Assembly (NCBI GenBank): GCA_007693385.1
Contig: REDR01000043.1
Location: 62,001-126,000 of the forward strand
Length of the DNA stretch: 64,000 nt
Source of the DNA: Anaerolineaceae bacterium
GTDB lineage: Bacteria > Chloroflexota > Anaerolineae > Aggregatilineales > Phototrophicaceae
Reading direction: 5' to 3'
Position 1 is the stretch's first letter, and each line of letters starts with the position of its first letter. The notes under the pieces are model-generated. The model saw nothing but the letters and a program-made list of their open reading frames with translations. It had not been told where the DNA came from and did no database searches. The position numbers and the translations under genes were made by a program. This document shows, in pieces, positions 32,883-39,183 of this stretch.

Positions 32883-33584
32883 ATGTCCAACGACGATAAA
32901 AACGTAAATAAACCAGCACTCAAGATCATCGAAGGTCTTGTCAAAGGGCGATCTGCAAATAACGATAACGATTCGGTTGTCTATCTGCACAAAGCACAGA
33001 CCATCATCGGGCGTGATGATGACTGTGATGTGATTGTGCTGGAGCGCGACGTGTCGCGTCATCATGCCTGCTTGCATATTGAAGGAGATAACTACTTCAT
33101 CGAAGACCTCAACAGCAGGAATGGGACACAGGTCAATGATATTCCGATTACCGGTAAAGTCCCCATCTTTAGTCAAAGCGAGATTGTGCTGGCTGGACAA
33201 TTAAAACTGCGGTTTTACAACCGGTTTGATACGATGAGTTTGAAAAGCGTCCCGACGGTTTTGGGCGGGCTTCTACGCATTGACATGCGTTCGCGCCGCG
33301 TTTTCATCGGTGATGACGAGATTCTGCCATCGCTCAGTTTACCGCAATATCGCTTGCTGGAATTGCTCTACAACAATCACGGGAACGTCTGTACCCGCGA
33401 TGAAGTGGTGCAGGCGGTGTGGCCGGATGCTGTTGGTGAGGGCGTCAGCGAACAGGCGATTGACGCGCTGGTGCGTCGCCTGCGGGATCGTCTGGCTGAT
33501 TATGCGGAAGACAAAGATTTCATCATCACGGTGCGCGGGCACGGTTTCCGTTTGGCTAATCCGTCGATGATTGAGGAAAATTAG
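32883..33584 (+). CDS. FHA domain fused to OmpR-type winged-helix DNA-binding domain
   Basis: A 233-residue predicted regulator. The FHA domain (about 28-110) has TIIGRDDDCDVIVLERDVSRHHACL and FIEDLNSRNGTQVND, including the phosphothreonine-binding Arg, Ser-Arg-His and Asn-Gly. The C-terminal domain (about 128-225) is a response-regulator-type winged helix: LSLPQYRLLELLYNNHGNVCTRDEVVQAVWPD, then AIDALVRRLRDRL and VRGHGFRL. No receiver domain. Binding to a phosphorylated partner probably sets its activity. Its own TATAAT box (32828-32833) lies about 50 bases upstream. It ends about 100 bases before the lysine leader, but there is no evidence that it controls lysine genes. Confidence 0.88.
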   Translation: MSNDDKNVNKPALKIIEGLVKGRSANNDNDSVVYLHKAQTIIGRDDDCDVIVLERDVSRHHACLHIEGDNYFIEDLNSRNGTQVNDIPITGKVPIFSQSEIVLAGQLKLRFYNRFDTMSLKSVPTVLGGLLRIDMRSRRVFIGDDEILPSLSLPQYRLLELLYNNHGNVCTRDEVVQAVWPDAVGEGVSEQAIDALVRRLRDRLADYAEDKDFIITVRGHGFRLANPSMIEEN

Positions 33585-33681
33585 TCCTTGCGTTTTTCCG
33601 CGAGCGATGTTAGTCTATAGCGCGTTGCGCCCTGCTATTTATGCGGACGTGCGCGAACGTATACAAACAAGAGATTTCGAC

Positions 33682-33738
33682 ATGACATACAGCGATCTGT
33701 TCAGCAAGAAGACGAAGAAGGCCATCACCCGTACATAG
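33682..33738 (+). CDS. Leader peptide 1, 18 residues with four Lys codons
   Basis: ATG 33682 to TAG 33736. Codons 9, 10, 12 and 13 are AAG (33706-33711 and 33715-33720), giving KKTKK. An AAGAGA-type ribosome site lies about 7 nt upstream. The stop codon lies just before the strand CCGGGCG (33740-33746), so a ribosome finishing the peptide would cover that strand and leave terminator 1 free to form. A ribosome waiting at the Lys codons would leave it open. CCCG (33728-33731) can pair with CGGG (33741-33744), which is the expected protector hairpin. The peptide itself is probably without function. Confidence 0.7.
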   Translation: MTYSDLFSKKTKKAITRT

Positions 33739-33739
33739 T

Positions 33740-33799
33740 CCGGGCGCTTTCGCTTTCCTGTCTCTGAACAGCGTAACGAAGTGAGCATCACCCGCCCGG
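33740..33799 (+). promoter_or_regulatory. Antiterminator 1 (competes with terminator 1)
   Basis: CCGGGCG (33740-33746) is the exact reverse complement of CGCCCGG (33793-33799). The latter overlaps the 5' arm of terminator 1 (33790-33796), so the two helices exclude each other. Confidence 0.65.
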
Positions 33800-33816
33800 T
33801 CTGGCGGGTTTTTTGT
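33790..33816 (+). terminator. Attenuator terminator 1
   Basis: ACCCGCC (33790-33796) pairs with GGCGGGT (33803-33809) around a 6-base loop and is followed by TTTTTT. It sits between two lysine leader ORFs, where a constitutive terminator would make no sense for the genes downstream. Confidence 0.85.
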
Positions 33817-33846
33817 TTTATAGTGACTTGAGGACGATTGAAGATC

Positions 33847-33927
33847 ATGCGACAACTGACCGCAACCAAGAAGGCCAAGAAGCATAGTAAACATCCAATC
33901 TTTTCTGGATTGCGGTGCGATTTTTGA
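33847..33927 (+). CDS. Leader peptide 2, 26 residues with five Lys codons
   Basis: ATG 33847 to TGA 33925. Codons 8, 9, 11, 12 and 15 are Lys (33868-33873, 33877-33882, 33889-33891), giving KKAKKHSK. GAGGA (33830-33834) lies upstream. Just past the last Lys codon, ATCCA (33893-33897) can pair with TGGAT (33906-33910). The antiterminator strand GGATTGCGGT (33907-33916) lies within the last codons of the ORF. A ribosome stalled on Lys would mask the first segment and free the second; a ribosome at the stop would mask the second. Confidence 0.7.
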   Translation: MRQLTATKKAKKHSKHPIFSGLRCDF

Positions 33928-33960
33928 TCCCCACCGTATAGGCCAAGCCAACCGCCATCC
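33907..33960 (+). promoter_or_regulatory. Antiterminator 2 (competes with terminator 2)
   Basis: GGATTGCGGT (33907-33916) pairs at 9 of 10 positions with ACCGCCATCC (33951-33960). That segment is the 5' arm of terminator 2, so the helices are mutually exclusive. Confidence 0.65.
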
Positions 33961-33982
33961 AGAATAGGACGGCGGTTTTTTA
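33950..33982 (+). terminator. Attenuator terminator 2
   Basis: AACCGCC-A-TCC (33950-33960) pairs with GGA-C-GGCGGTT (33967-33977) with one A-C mismatch and a 6-base loop, followed by TTTTTAT. The lysW start lies 52 bases further on. Confidence 0.85.
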
Positions 33983-34034
33983 TTGAACATTTTCACGCTA
34001 GTTTATCGAATTGATCGTAGGAGAGAGAAAACCC

Positions 34035-34214
34035 ATGATAACCAATCAGACAGCCAATTGTCCGGAATGTGACGCGACACTCAACATCCCCGCCGACGCT
34101 ATGCAGAATGAATTGATCGCCTGTGCGGATTGCGGCGCGGAGCTGGAAATCATCAGCCTTGATCCAATTGAACTTGATCTCGCGCCGGAAGTCGAAGAGG
34201 ATTGGGGCGAATGA
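34035..34214 (+). CDS. lysW: LysW amino-group carrier protein
   Basis: A 59-residue acidic carrier protein for lysine synthesis via alpha-aminoadipate. The N-terminal zinc ribbon has CPEC (about residues 9-12) and CADC (about 30-33). The C-terminus ends EDWGE, the defining motif whose terminal Glu is joined to alpha-aminoadipate by LysX. Start ATG 34035 has GTAGGAG upstream at 34018-34024; an in-frame start at 34011 would add eight residues not found in the family. The stop overlaps the lysX start (ATGA). First gene of lysWXYZJK, behind the tandem attenuator. Confidence 0.96.
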   Translation: MITNQTANCPECDATLNIPADAMQNELIACADCGAELEIISLDPIELDLAPEVEEDWGE

Positions 34215-35092
34215 TGCGCGTTGGATTGCTGGTGACGCACATTCGCGCTGAGGAGAAAGCGCTCATCGCGGCATTTGAAGCGGCGGGCGTCCAGCCGGAT
34301 GTCATCCTTGACCGTGACGTGAACATCGACCTGAACGCGGGCGCGGGGCAAATCGCGCCATCCGGCTATGCGTGGAGCGACTACGGCTTGATCGTCGAGC
34401 GTTGCGTCAGCACATCACGCGGGCTGTACTTGCTGGCGGTCTTTGCGACGTGGGGCATCCCCACCGTCAACGACTACCAGACCGCCGCCGTGTGTGCCGA
34501 TAAAGTGCGCACGACTTTAGCGTTAGCGGAACAAGGCATCGCGCAACCGCAAACGCGGCTGGCCTTCACGCCGGATAGCGCCATCGAAGCGATTGAGGCG
34601 GTGGGTTATCCCGCCGTGCTGAAACCGGCTACCGGATCGTGGGGGCGTCTGTTGGCGCGGGTGAATGACCGCGAGAGCGCCGAAGCCATCATCGAGCATC
34701 GCCAGACGCTGGGCGATTACAACCACCACACGTACTACGTACAGGCTTACGTCGCCAAACCTCAGCGCGACATTCGCGCCTTCGTCGTCGGCGATCAGAC
34801 GGTGTGCGCCATCTATCGCCACGCGGAACACTGGATCACCAACACAGCACGCGGCGGATCAGCCAGCAATTGCGCGGTGACGCCGGAGCTAGACGCGATC
34901 TGCCGTTCTGCGGCGCGGGCGGTGGGCGGCGGCGTGCTGGCTGTCGATCTGCTGGAGACACCGGCGGGTGATTTGCTGGTGAACGAGATCAACCACACGA
35001 TGGAATTTCGCAATAGTAGCGCCCCGACTGGTGTGGACATCGCACAGGTCGCCGTCGCCTACATGCTGGAACAGATGCGGGTGATAGCATGA
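34211..35092 (+). CDS. lysX: LysW--alpha-aminoadipate ligase LysX
   Basis: A 293-residue ATP-grasp enzyme that couples alpha-aminoadipate to the C-terminal Glu of LysW. Motifs: VERCVSTSRGLYLLAVFATWGIPTVNDYQT in the N-terminal part, VLKPATGSWGRLL (ATP-binding loop), YVQAYVAKPQRDIRAFVVGD, WITNTARGGSASN, and DLLVNEINHTMEFRN with metal ligands. Length is normal. The start is ATG 34211 or the next ATG at 34214, both overlapping the lysW stop. ArgX homologues have the same fold, but the lysine leader and lysW context favour lysine. The 3' end overlaps lysY by 4 nt. Confidence 0.94.
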   Translation: MMRVGLLVTHIRAEEKALIAAFEAAGVQPDVILDRDVNIDLNAGAGQIAPSGYAWSDYGLIVERCVSTSRGLYLLAVFATWGIPTVNDYQTAAVCADKVRTTLALAEQGIAQPQTRLAFTPDSAIEAIEAVGYPAVLKPATGSWGRLLARVNDRESAEAIIEHRQTLGDYNHHTYYVQAYVAKPQRDIRAFVVGDQTVCAIYRHAEHWITNTARGGSASNCAVTPELDAICRSAARAVGGGVLAVDLLETPAGDLLVNEINHTMEFRNSSAPTGVDIAQVAVAYMLEQMRVIA

Positions 35093-36114
35093 TTCGGGCG
35101 GGCATCATTGGCGGCAGTGGTTACACCGGCGGCGAATTATTGCGCCTGTTGTTGTTTCATCCACACGTTGAAGTGACACAGATCACCAGTCGCGGGCAGG
35201 TCGGGCGCTATGTGCATACCGTCCATCCCAATCTGCGCGGGGTGACGACGCTACAATTCATCCATCCGGACGCGGTGCAACCGTGCGACGTGCTGTTCCT
35301 GTGTTTGCCGCATGGCGAATCCGCCGCGCAGATGGCGCACTATGCCGCGCTCGCACCGCGCATCGTTGATCTTTCCGCCGATTTCCGGTTGAATTCGCCG
35401 GAACTGTACGCGACATGGTACGGCGGTCAGCATCCGGCGCCGGACTGGTTAGCGCGTTTCGTGTACGGCCTGCCGGAACTCAACCGTGAGGCGATACGCG
35501 GCGCGACGCATGTTAGCGGGGTAGGGTGCAACGCGACGGCGCTCAATCTGGCGTTGTATCCGCTGGCGTCCGCCGGATTGCTGGGGCAGGCCAGCGTCGA
35601 ATTAAAAGTCGGCTCGTCGGAGGGCGGCAACAGCCCTAATGCTGGTTCGCATCATCCGGCGCGTAGCGGCGCGGTACGCACTTACAGCGCGACGCGCCAT
35701 CGCCACATGGCGGAAGTCCAGATGATGCTGGGCGCGGATGTGGCGGTTCGCTTCGCAGTGACCGCGATTGAGATGGTGCGCGGCGTGCATCTGCTGGCGC
35801 ATGTTGACTTGACGGCGGCACAGGCCGAGCGCGACATCTGGCGGCTGTATCGTGGCGCGTACCGTGACGAGCCATTTGTGCGGCTGGTCGCCAGCAAAAG
35901 CGGCCTGCATCGCGTGCCGGAGCCGCGCATTGTGGCCGGTACTAACTACTGCGACATCGGCTTCGAGCTGGACGCGGACGGCGAGCATCTGGTGGTCATC
36001 GCCGCGCTGGATAATCTGGGCAAGGGCGCGGCGGGCAGTGCGGTGCAGTGTATGAATTTGATGCACGATTTTGACGAAACAGCCGGCCTGACATTTCCCG
36101 GCATTTATCCGTAA
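35089..36114 (+). CDS. lysY: LysW-gamma-aminoadipyl-phosphate reductase LysY
   Basis: A 341-residue homologue of ArgC. It reduces the phosphorylated LysW-bound aminoadipate to the semialdehyde with NADPH. Motifs: nucleotide-binding GIIGGSGYTGGELLRLL at the start, the substrate-binding SADFRL, the catalytic Cys in VSGVGCNATAL (about residues 144-154), and SEGGNSPNAGSHHPARS. Coupled to lysX by ATGA. The next gene starts 48 nt later with its own ribosome site. Confidence 0.95.
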   Translation: MIRAGIIGGSGYTGGELLRLLLFHPHVEVTQITSRGQVGRYVHTVHPNLRGVTTLQFIHPDAVQPCDVLFLCLPHGESAAQMAHYAALAPRIVDLSADFRLNSPELYATWYGGQHPAPDWLARFVYGLPELNREAIRGATHVSGVGCNATALNLALYPLASAGLLGQASVELKVGSSEGGNSPNAGSHHPARSGAVRTYSATRHRHMAEVQMMLGADVAVRFAVTAIEMVRGVHLLAHVDLTAAQAERDIWRLYRGAYRDEPFVRLVASKSGLHRVPEPRIVAGTNYCDIGFELDADGEHLVVIAALDNLGKGAAGSAVQCMNLMHDFDETAGLTFPGIYP

Positions 36115-36162: not shown

Positions 36163-36963
36163 ATGAGTCAGGATATTCTGGTTGTGAAAATTGGTGGCGG
36201 CGCCGGTCTGGACTTAGCGCAGACTTGCGCTGATCTGGCGGAAGTGGCGCGTCAGCGTCCGGTGGTGATCGTACATGGCGTCAGCGCGATGATGGCCGAT
36301 CTCGCGGCGGAGCGCGGCCTGACGGAGCGCATGTTGACTTCACCAAGCGGCCACCGTTCGCGCTATACCGACGCGCCCACCCGTGATCTATTCGTGCAGG
36401 CTTCGGGGCGCGTGGCGGAGCAAATCGGCGGTTATATGGGCGCGGGCGGCGTGCAAATCGCCCATCTCGCGGACTGCATCACCGGAACGCGCAAACGTGC
36501 GATCCGCGCTGTGGTTGATGGCCGTGTGCGCGTCATCCGCGATGATTATTCCGGCTCGATTCAATCGGTCAATACCGCGCCGATTCTGGGAGCGCTCGCG
36601 GCTGGTCAGGTGCCGGTCATCTCCCCGATGGCGCTGGATATGGCCGACGGCCTGCTGAATATCGACGGTGATCGGGCGGCGGCGGCGGTGGCTTCCGCGC
36701 TGGGTGCGTCGATGCTGGTCATCCTCAGCAATGTGCGCGGGCTGTATCGTCAATTCCCTGATGAGTCGTCGTTCGTGTCGCGCATCGCGCCGGAGCAGAT
36801 CGAACGGGCGATGGATTGGGCACAAGGCCGCATGAAACGTAAAGTCTTGGGCGCACAGGAAGCGCTGGCCGGTGGCGTCCGGCAGGTTGTGGTCAGCGAT
36901 GGGCGCATCCATCATCCGGTGACGGCGGCGCTATCCGGCGCGGGGACGGTGTTCGCCCCATGA
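36163..36963 (+). CDS. lysZ: LysW-aminoadipate kinase LysZ
   Basis: A 266-residue amino-acid kinase of the ArgB family. It phosphorylates LysW-bound alpha-aminoadipate. Motifs: VVKIGGGAGLD at the start, VIVHGVSAMMADLA, GRVRVIRDDYSGSI, PVISPMALDMADGLLNIDGDRAAAAVASALGA, and a late GRMKRKVLGAQEALAGG. GGGAG lies about 8 nt before the ATG. Ends by overlap with the lysJ start. Confidence 0.95.
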   Translation: MSQDILVVKIGGGAGLDLAQTCADLAEVARQRPVVIVHGVSAMMADLAAERGLTERMLTSPSGHRSRYTDAPTRDLFVQASGRVAEQIGGYMGAGGVQIAHLADCITGTRKRAIRAVVDGRVRVIRDDYSGSIQSVNTAPILGALAAGQVPVISPMALDMADGLLNIDGDRAAAAVASALGASMLVILSNVRGLYRQFPDESSFVSRIAPEQIERAMDWAQGRMKRKVLGAQEALAGGVRQVVVSDGRIHHPVTAALSGAGTVFAP

Positions 36964-38141
36964 TTGCTTACGATGAAGACATCCGCACCACCGAAGACCG
37001 CCACACATCCGGCGCGTATTCCAAGCGCCCGTTAACGCTGGTGCGCGGCGAAGGCGTGCGCGTGTGGGATGATGCCGATAACGAATATATCGACGCGACA
37101 AGCGGGCAGGGCGTGGCGTTGCTCGGCCATGCACACCCGCAGATCACGGCGGCCATCAGCGCTCAGTCGGGGGCGCTCATCACCTGTCCGGAAATTTTCT
37201 ACAATGATCGCCGCGCCGAACTTTATCGCCTGCTGGCGTCGGTCATGCCGGATGGCATGGATCGCTTCTTCCTGTGCAATAGCGGCGCGGAGGCGATGGA
37301 GGGCGCGTTGAAGGCGGCGCGACTGTTGACCGAACGGCGCGGCGTGGTGGCGGCGGTGCGCGGCTTTCACGGGCGCACATTGGGCGCTCTGGCGTTGACG
37401 TGGAACAAGAAATATCGCCAACCGTTCGCCGGATGGACGGCGGAAGATGTCGCCCATGTCGCCTATAACGATCTGGATGCGGCGCGGGCGGTCATCGGCG
37501 CGGAGACGGCGGCGGTGGTGGTCGAAGCGGTGCAAGGAGAGGGCGGCGTGCATCCGGCGGATGTCGATTATCTGCGCGGCCTGCGTCAGATTTGCGACGA
37601 AACCGGCGCGTTGTTGATCGTCGATGAAGTGCAGACCGGCTTCGGGCGTACCGGACGCTGGTTCGCGTTTGAACATGCGGACATCATCCCCGATATTGTG
37701 GCGCTGGGAAAGGGCATCGCGGGCGGCGTGCCGATGGGGGCGGTGGCGTGGCGTTCGGCGCTGGGCGCGTTGCCGCGAGGCTCACACGGTAGTACATTCG
37801 GCGGCAATCCGCTAGCGTGCGCGGCGGCGTCGGCCACCATCGAGACATTAGCGGCGGAGGACTTGCCCGCACATTCGGCGGAGTTGGGCGCTTGGGCGCG
37901 GGAGGAGATCAATCGGCGCGATTGGTCGGCGGTGCGCGAGGTGCGCGGGCTGGGCTTGATGATCGGCATAGAATTGCGCGGGCGCGTCACGCCGATATTG
38001 CAAGGGTTACAGGCGCGGGGCGTGCTGGCATTACCGGCAGGCTTGAACGTGTTGCGCCTTCTGCCGCCGTTGATTATCAGCCGTGATGAATTGCTGGCCG
38101 TCATCGACGCGATTGGGGATACATTGCATGATAACGCCTGA
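36960..38141 (+). CDS. lysJ: LysW-aminoadipate semialdehyde aminotransferase LysJ
   Basis: A 393-residue class III PLP aminotransferase, ArgD/LysJ type. Motifs: NEYIDATSGQGVALLGHAHP, NSGAEAMEGALKAARLLT, GFHGRTLGALALT, VEAVQGEGGVHPA, LLIVDEVQTGFGRTGRWFAFEH and the PLP-binding Lys in VALGKGIAGGVPMGA (about residues 247-261). Coupled to lysZ by ATGA; its 3' end overlaps the lysK start by 14 nt. Confidence 0.95.
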   Translation: MIAYDEDIRTTEDRHTSGAYSKRPLTLVRGEGVRVWDDADNEYIDATSGQGVALLGHAHPQITAAISAQSGALITCPEIFYNDRRAELYRLLASVMPDGMDRFFLCNSGAEAMEGALKAARLLTERRGVVAAVRGFHGRTLGALALTWNKKYRQPFAGWTAEDVAHVAYNDLDAARAVIGAETAAVVVEAVQGEGGVHPADVDYLRGLRQICDETGALLIVDEVQTGFGRTGRWFAFEHADIIPDIVALGKGIAGGVPMGAVAWRSALGALPRGSHGSTFGGNPLACAAASATIETLAAEDLPAHSAELGAWAREEINRRDWSAVREVRGLGLMIGIELRGRVTPILQGLQARGVLALPAGLNVLRLLPPLIISRDELLAVIDAIGDTLHDNA

Positions 38142-39183
38142 AACCGCCGAGCGCTTGCTGTACGATCTGGTCGCTATCCCCAGCCCGTCGCACGAAGAAG
38201 CGGCGGCAGTACGCTATCTAGTCGATTGGATGGCGGCGCAGGGTTACGATGAGGCTTACGTGGACGCGGCGGGGAACGCGGTGGGCATCATCGGGCGCGG
38301 TGAGCGCGAGATCGTCCTGCTTGGTCACATTGACACGTTCGGCGGATTCCCGACGCCACACATCGACGGAGCGCGGCGTTTGTACGGGCGCGGCGCGGTG
38401 GATGCGAAAGGCGCGTTATGCACGTTTGCCGTCGCCGCGTTGCGGGCGAGCTTGCCGGATGATCTGCGCGTGGTGGTGGTCGGCGCGGTGGAAGAAGAGG
38501 CGGCCACCAGCAAGGGCGCACGCCACATCGCCGCGCAATTCACGCCGGAACTATGCATCATCGGCGAGCCGTCCAATTGGGATCGCATCACGCTAGGCTA
38601 TAAAGGGCGGCTGGTGTTGTCGTGGTCGTGGTCGGGAGCGCTGGCGCACAGCGCCGCCGATACACCCTCCGCGCCGGAACGCGCCTTCGCGTATTGGGCG
38701 CGGGTGCAAGCGTATTGCGCGGCGTTCAACGACGGGCGCGAGTCGCCGTTTGCGCGTTTATTGCCGCGTTTGCAGGCCATTCATAGCGATGACGATGGCG
38801 TGCATGGCCGCGCTGAGATGACCGTCGGCTTTCGTCTGCCGCCGGATTTATCGCCGCCGGATGTTCTGGACGCGCTGGGCGAAGATGGCGACGCCCGCAT
38901 CGCGTGTTATGGCGCGGAGCAGACCGTCGTTGCGGAGCGTGATAGCGTGCTGACCCGTGCGCTACGCGGCGCTATCCGCGCTGAAGGCGGTAAGCCGCGC
39001 TTCGTGTACAAGACTGGCACCGCCGATATGAACGTGGTCGCGCCGGTGTGGGGATGCCCGATTGTGGCGTATGGGCCGGGCGACTCCGCGCTGGATCATA
39101 CGCCGGACGAGCATATTCATCTCGATGAATACCAGCAGGCGATCAACGTACTGGCCGATGCGCTGGGGCGTCTGGGCGGATGA
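38128..39183 (+). CDS. lysK: LysW-lysine hydrolase LysK
   Basis: A 351-residue M20 metallopeptidase that releases lysine from LysW in the last step. Metal ligands are visible in LLGHIDTFGGF, GRGAVDAKGALCT and VEEEAATSKGARH; a late catalytic region TGTADMNVVAP fits the family. Start ATG 38128 (MITPETAERLL); an in-frame start at 38083 lies inside lysJ and is not supported. Together lysWXYZJK cover the LysW-bound half of the pathway. The early steps (homocitrate synthase, homoaconitase, homoisocitrate dehydrogenase, LysN) are not in this window. Confidence 0.93.
   Translation: MITPETAERLLYDLVAIPSPSHEEAAAVRYLVDWMAAQGYDEAYVDAAGNAVGIIGRGEREIVLLGHIDTFGGFPTPHIDGARRLYGRGAVDAKGALCTFAVAALRASLPDDLRVVVVGAVEEEAATSKGARHIAAQFTPELCIIGEPSNWDRITLGYKGRLVLSWSWSGALAHSAADTPSAPERAFAYWARVQAYCAAFNDGRESPFARLLPRLQAIHSDDDGVHGRAEMTVGFRLPPDLSPPDVLDALGEDGDARIACYGAEQTVVAERDSVLTRALRGAIRAEGGKPRFVYKTGTADMNVVAPVWGCPIVAYGPGDSALDHTPDEHIHLDEYQQAINVLADALGRLGG

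Follow-up and report, generated by a model that had tools for sequence, protein, structure and literature searches.

Two Predicted Lysine Leader-Peptide Attenuators in Series Upstream of the LysW-Type Lysine Operon in Anaerolineae

We found that the lysW operon of a Chloroflexota genome (Anaerolineae; 3.6 Mb in 137 contigs, with named relatives that include Phototrophicales and Anaerolineae MAGs) is preceded by two modules that we read, with high confidence, as ribosome-mediated transcription attenuators placed in series and sensing charged tRNA-Lys, the classical mechanism used twice. This assignment was made from DNA sequence, without expression data. Sequence and comparison with relatives support the predicted leaders and terminators, the antiterminator pairing, the geometry of these elements, the lack of promoter-like sequence between the modules, their conservation, and their presence at both lysine operons.

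Both modules lie in the intergenic stretch between the end of a winged-helix/FHA gene at 33584, which runs in the same direction, and the start of lysW at 34035. Coordinates are those of the window, by which we mean the whole 64-kb stretch of DNA that was analyzed, and all window features described here are on the + strand. A sequence-only reading of the same DNA had placed two KKxKK lysine modules at 33585–34034 ahead of a LysW operon; both are present, with leaders, terminators, and downstream genes that NCBIfam models identify. Six genes follow in the order lysW-lysX-lysY-lysZ-lysJ-lysK. The first, lysW (34035–34214; TIGR01206, above cut-off), encodes the amino-group carrier protein with the C-terminal sequence EDWGE and is followed by lysX (34211–35092; RimK-like ligase; TIGR02144, above cut-off), lysY (35089–36114; ArgC-like reductase; TIGR01850), and lysZ (36163–36963; [LysW]-aminoadipate kinase; NF010659, above cut-off). 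The aminotransferase gene lysJ (36960–38141) has LysJ NF042418 as its best match, under the cut-off of that model, and lysK (38083–39183; [LysW]-lysine hydrolase; NF003367, above cut-off) has an uncertain start codon. The LysW operon makes lysine, the amino acid that the leaders are predicted to sense, and the genome also has a homocitrate synthase above the family cut-off. It should be added that in a lysine riboswitch survey (PMC5584792) the name “lysW” denotes a transporter of the NhaC type that has no relation to the LysW carrier, and searches by name mix the two.

The first module opens with a leader peptide ORF (33682–33738) encoding MTYSDLFSKKTKKAITRT followed by a stop codon, in which a KKTKK run is specified by AAG AAG ACG AAG AAG at 33706–33720. 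Within this leader, a competitor segment (segment 1), CACCCG (33726–33731), can pair with CGGGCG and would thereby sequester the antiterminator 5′ arm. That arm, CCGGGCG (33740–33746), starts its helix ∼15 nt past the last Lys codon, and its predicted partner, CGCCCGG (33793–33799), overlaps the 5′ arm and loop of intrinsic terminator 1. The terminator (33790–33819) consists of the hairpin ACCCGCC-CGGTCT-GGCGGGT at 33790–33809 and the T tract TTTTTGTTTT. A covariance model of the family matched the module at 33706–33819 with 75.1 bits, the sequence itself being among the 35 from which the model was built. A hairpin over the leader 1 stop is conserved in relatives and is often followed by a T-rich stretch. 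At four loci (L003, L018, L024, and L219), the short hairpin across this stop codon and the T-rich stretch after it (e.g. TTTTTGCTT) resemble a small terminator or polymerase pause site.

The second module, matched by the same model at 33868–33985, has a leader peptide ORF (33847–33927) encoding MRQLTATKKAKKHSKHPIFSGLRCDF and a stop codon, with a KKAKK run from AAG AAG GCC AAG AAG at 33868–33882. Directly 5′ of these Lys codons lies a protector arm, ACCGCAACC (33859–33867), predicted to pair with GGATTGCGGT in ribosome-free RNA; a putative protector or pause hairpin is clear in this module, and in many relatives near the leader 1 stop, with no covariation data for it. The antiterminator 5′ arm, TTCTGGATTGCGG (33903–33915), is supported by covariation, duplex, and fold, and the 3′ arm, CCGCCATCCAGAA (33952–33964), overlaps the 5′ arm and loop of intrinsic terminator 2 (33950–33984), which is formed by the hairpin AACCGCCATCC-AGAATA-GGACGGCGGTT at 33950–33977 and a T tract. 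In both modules of the window, the antiterminator segment thus lies about 15–20 nt beyond the last Lys codon and pairs with the terminator 5′ arm. The antiterminator cores of the two modules are alike (GTCYGG with CCRGAC), whereas the leaders and the placement of their stop codons differ, and it is not settled whether both modules derive from one duplication.

Minimum-energy folding of single modules gave only modest z-scores (−1.9 and −2.4), and we therefore relied on comparative evidence for the antiterminators. In a duplex test of 126 modules, the sequence 3′ of the Lys run was paired with the 5′ arm and loop of the terminator; the best-pairing duplex had a median z of −3.0 against dinucleotide shuffles, and 83% of the modules fell below −1.64. 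In most modules, 13–19 nt separate the last Lys codon from the 5′ arm, 14–16 nt being the commonest spacing, and a ribosome that stalled on the Lys run would leave this position accessible. When terminators were swapped between modules, arms paired better with their own partner (−18.3 kcal/mol) than with swapped ones (−12.7 kcal/mol; Wilcoxon p 2e-17). This test is only moderately sharp because antiterminator cores are similar between loci; in half of the modules, fewer than 10% of foreign terminators paired equally well.

For covariation, 35 copies of module 1 and 19 copies of module 2 were aligned. For module 1, 92% of cells were paired, with CG, AU, GC, UG, and UA at columns 44/116 and 16 CG and 16 UA pairs at columns 45/115; the covariation score was 0.359, compared with 0.166 for shuffled and at most 0.065 for slid alignments. 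For module 2, 95.6% of cells were paired, with GC, UA, and AU at column 41/102. Shuffled and slid controls were far lower than the true antiterminator pairing. The covarying columns of module 1 are mostly in the terminator loop, so that terminator pairing does not explain them. The paired columns were picked after the sequences had been read; for module 1, however, RNAalifold, run on this alignment without guidance, arrived at a consensus with identical core pairs. Compensatory changes across relatives support the predicted antiterminator pairing in each module.

In folding of module 1, a ribosome placed on the last Lys codon gave the antiterminator, whereas the terminator was predicted once the ribosome was moved to the stop codon or left out. 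For module 2, the antiterminator was predicted to form before the terminator 3′ arm is transcribed, and free RNA was predicted to adopt the protector and the terminator. In the full module 2 RNA, the terminator beats the antiterminator thermodynamically, a result that we counted against our explanation; since this antiterminator can prevail only while the 3′ arm has yet to be transcribed, the model requires kinetic folding.

The gap between terminator 1 and leader 2 is mostly 20–45 nt across loci. None of the 36 gaps scanned contains a sigma-70-like match of at least 9/12, whereas 46% of loci have one ahead of leader 1. No strong sigma-70 promoter could be recognized at the latter position in the window, where the best match is 8/12. 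The lack of promoter-like sequence between the modules, together with the short gap, indicates that the modules are in series and that polymerase must pass both terminators. An arrangement in series on one transcript is thus supported at the level of sequence, with transcript starts unmapped. Two lysine attenuators in series were what the sequence-only reading had proposed, and each module indeed combines a leader that contains a Lys run with a terminator and an antiterminator supported by covariation.

The gene for homocitrate synthase (TIGR02146, above cut-off) is on a different contig from lysW and is followed by a homoaconitase-like gene. Upstream of it (L219:1154-1460, G000:C81) are tandem Lys leaders, MVKIMVMSISKQAKKHTPER and MTLHDIKKTKKHIPPD, each ending in a stop codon, and two terminators, the whole preceded by a near-consensus sigma-70 promoter, TTGACA-17-TATATT. 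The covariance model, built from the 35 first modules and including the first lysW module and none of the homocitrate synthase modules, gave exactly four matches in the whole genome (E ≤ 1): the pair ahead of lysW and the pair ahead of homocitrate synthase. Twenty-nine relatives with a close-type homocitrate synthase have no separate leader for it, and the gene is located 4–6 kb downstream of lysW where contigs allow. An unlinked homocitrate synthase has two modules in G007, G026, G021, and G023, as does lysW in these genomes, and one module in G078 and G081, where lysW likewise has one. Module number agrees between the two lysine operons in each genome with an unlinked homocitrate synthase that was checked.

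Of 98 genomes of the family, 83 retain the modules, and leader-terminator pairs stand upstream of lysW in nearly all of its members. Two leaders were found in 16 of the 22 genera by automatic count and by reading of the leaders; a single leader was found in genus g17, with its 34 genomes, and in a small number of others. Tandem modules are also present in four other Anaerolineae families, f22 (L164, L174), f40 (L166, L196), f8 (L095-L097, L099), and f3 (L102, L103). Absence from all relatives, which would have refuted the sequence-only reading by its own account, is thereby ruled out. As a negative control, 20 LysW loci from other Chloroflexota classes were scanned, and none had a Lys leader with a terminator. 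On a tree of LysX proteins, the tandem label requires only 3 changes, compared with 10.7 after shuffling, and it therefore looks like an old state that has been kept; near relatives add to this clustering. Many relatives are represented by draft MAGs; where a module appears to be missing, a contig end or the scanner thresholds may be the cause.

Some loci stood apart in this survey. Two from genus g19 (L009 and L010) have worn leaders, with KVKK only or no recognizable Lys run, and a terminator that persists, possibly a loss of lysine sensing. An Anaerolineae-like lysW with a Lys leader occurs on a contig filed under a Halieaceae MAG (L038), a gammaproteobacterial bin to which it was probably misassigned. 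In family f72 of another Chloroflexota class (L252/G503; G445, G475, G580, G642, G517, and G608), two to three lysW genes stand in tandem ∼200 bases apart; no Lys leaders were found upstream of those at L252.

These data bear on the possibility that only one module senses lysine and that the other is a relic or acts chiefly to end transcription of the upstream gene. The single module retained by genus g17 and some others would suit such an arrangement, as would the position of terminator 1, ∼200 nt past the end of the co-directional gene. However, leader, Lys run, and covarying antiterminator are conserved for each of the two modules separately, the majority of genera in the family keep two leaders, module number is equal for lysW and the unlinked homocitrate synthase operons, and the tandem state needs so few changes on the LysX tree. 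We consider a single sensing module improbable.

The Lys codons of the runs are 89% AAG, compared with 44% in lysX at the same loci (AAG:AAA 188:24 versus 93:117; Fisher p 4e-23). Theory holds that attenuators do best with codons of the isoacceptor that is first to lose its charge (PMC1183508). The AAG preference may thus mark a starvation-sensitive isoacceptor or, alternatively, avoidance of slippery A runs. The same preference could also be taken to mean that the leaders respond to something other than charged tRNA-Lys, either through intrinsically slow decoding of Lys or AAG runs or through a protein that binds purine-rich AAGAAG repeats. Among relatives, however, the runs vary (KKAKK, KKKQSKK, and KQKKQDKK, with AAA and AAG mixed and any codon between) and yet without exception share the frame of a start codon and of a stop codon close by, translation itself not being shown. 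Moreover, matches to the family model in this genome are confined to the two lysine operons, and the choice of AAG could also be predicted from selective charging of isoacceptors (PMC1183508). We regard a response of this other kind as very unlikely, and sensing of charged tRNA-Lys remains the preferred reading.

In other phyla, lysine genes that are regulated at the RNA level usually have a lysine riboswitch (L-box) or a T-box, and such an element might be in charge here, with the ORFs incidental. Covariance models for the two from Rfam were without a match, and at gathering level Rfam gave nothing but tRNAs, in the window, ten related loci, and the homocitrate synthase operon of the same genome; what is conserved instead is the leader, the antiterminator, and the terminator. 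We therefore give control by either element hardly any weight, and a known riboswitch or small RNA, the other finding that would have overturned the sequence-only reading, did not appear at this level. Sub-threshold Rfam matches to anti-hemB and DUF3800-IX scored far under gathering and were rejected as noise.

On both strands of the window, such a Lys run occurs in only 3 short ORFs, of which only 2, leaders 1 and 2, are followed by a terminator. In 2000 dinucleotide shuffles of 33585–34034, one Lys-run ORF appeared in 0.05%, and two such ORFs, or an ORF with a terminator, never did. An accidental placement of Lys-rich ORFs and terminators upstream of lysW is thus a negligible prospect in the face of these shuffles, of the covariation, and of the absence of the elements from the sampled LysW loci of other classes, and we count it as already refuted by the conservation seen in 83 of the 98 genomes.

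In the mechanism that we propose, RNA polymerase would transcribe the short ORF with a ribosome following behind. With plentiful charged tRNA-Lys, the ribosome would pass the Lys codons to the stop, where it covers or frees the downstream segment, allowing the terminator hairpin to form and stop transcription. With charged tRNA-Lys scarce, the ribosome would stall on the Lys run and leave the downstream segment exposed; this segment would then pair with the terminator 5′ arm as an antiterminator, and polymerase would continue. Module 2 would put the polymerase through the same test again ahead of lysW. Leader translation, ribosome stalling, termination at both sites, and the response to lysine are inferred steps, as is any sharpening or benefit from the series. 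Read-through would be approximately the product of two lysine-dependent probabilities. If these probabilities do multiply, it can be inferred that leak is multiplied down and that logarithmic gains, the definition of sensitivity taken from PMC1183508, are added. The sharper response that had been claimed for the tandem follows from this logic of the series and remains an inference.

Beyond this locus, we lean toward the view that the modules form a lineage-wide AND gate of same-signal attenuators, present at every lysine operon of the genome, kept equal in number between unlinked operons, and evolved for steepness and low leak, which would be the first conserved tandem sensing the same amino acid. 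Relatives with two or with one switch for the same input, equal in number on two unlinked operons in the genomes checked, offer a natural experiment on the tuning of leak and steepness. In addition, for Anaerolineae, a large and little-cultivated class, the modules delimit a lysine regulon and provide a marker by which LysW operons that serve lysine can be annotated.

Attenuation is a textbook mechanism that nearly always acts as a single switch per operon. The defining features of leader-peptide attenuators that sequence can address are satisfied here: a Lys-run leader, a terminator, a positioned antiterminator, and a lysine operon downstream. As in the enterobacterial trp, his, leu, thr, and phe attenuators, a leader rich in the cognate codon and mutually exclusive antiterminator and terminator hairpins precede an operon for the same amino acid; unlike in those systems, lysine is the amino acid sensed, the operon is of the LysW carrier-protein type, and each transcript would hold two complete attenuators. 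Lysine riboswitches (L-box) and T-boxes likewise control lysine genes at the RNA level, whereas the modules described here match neither family and would sense through translation. The sequence-only reading took attenuation of a LysW pathway to be undescribed. This is at odds with a report in the Journal of Biological Chemistry in 2005, in which the lysine (AAA/LysW) cluster of Thermus thermophilus is reported to be controlled by transcription attenuation through a Lys leader peptide. The Thermus thermophilus cluster shares the Lys codons in a leader peptide and the lysine pathway but reportedly has a single leader, whereas in Anaerolineae the leaders are in tandem and precede the homocitrate synthase operon as well as the lysW operon.

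Tandem controls are known from other systems. The Salmonella mgtCBR leader contains two attenuators, mgtM and mgtP, for which the authors stress different signals (PMC3641672). It likewise has two short ORFs, each controlling transcription into the operon; there, however, ATP and proline are sensed and no clear intrinsic terminators are present, whereas here both modules are predicted to respond to the same amino acid and each has a terminator. The leader of Bacillus clausii metE carries tandem riboswitches (cited in PMC3641672) and similarly has two transcription-termination controls in one leader; its RNA binds metabolites directly and reads two signals, in contrast to the single signal and the translated leaders proposed here. 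No report of tandem leader-peptide attenuators for the same amino acid was found in the literature searched, which is weak evidence because most subscription papers lay outside it. We conclude that the leader-peptide mechanism is not new, nor, given the Thermus thermophilus report, is Lys attenuation of the LysW pathway; what is new is the conserved tandem for a single signal and its regulon-wide use.
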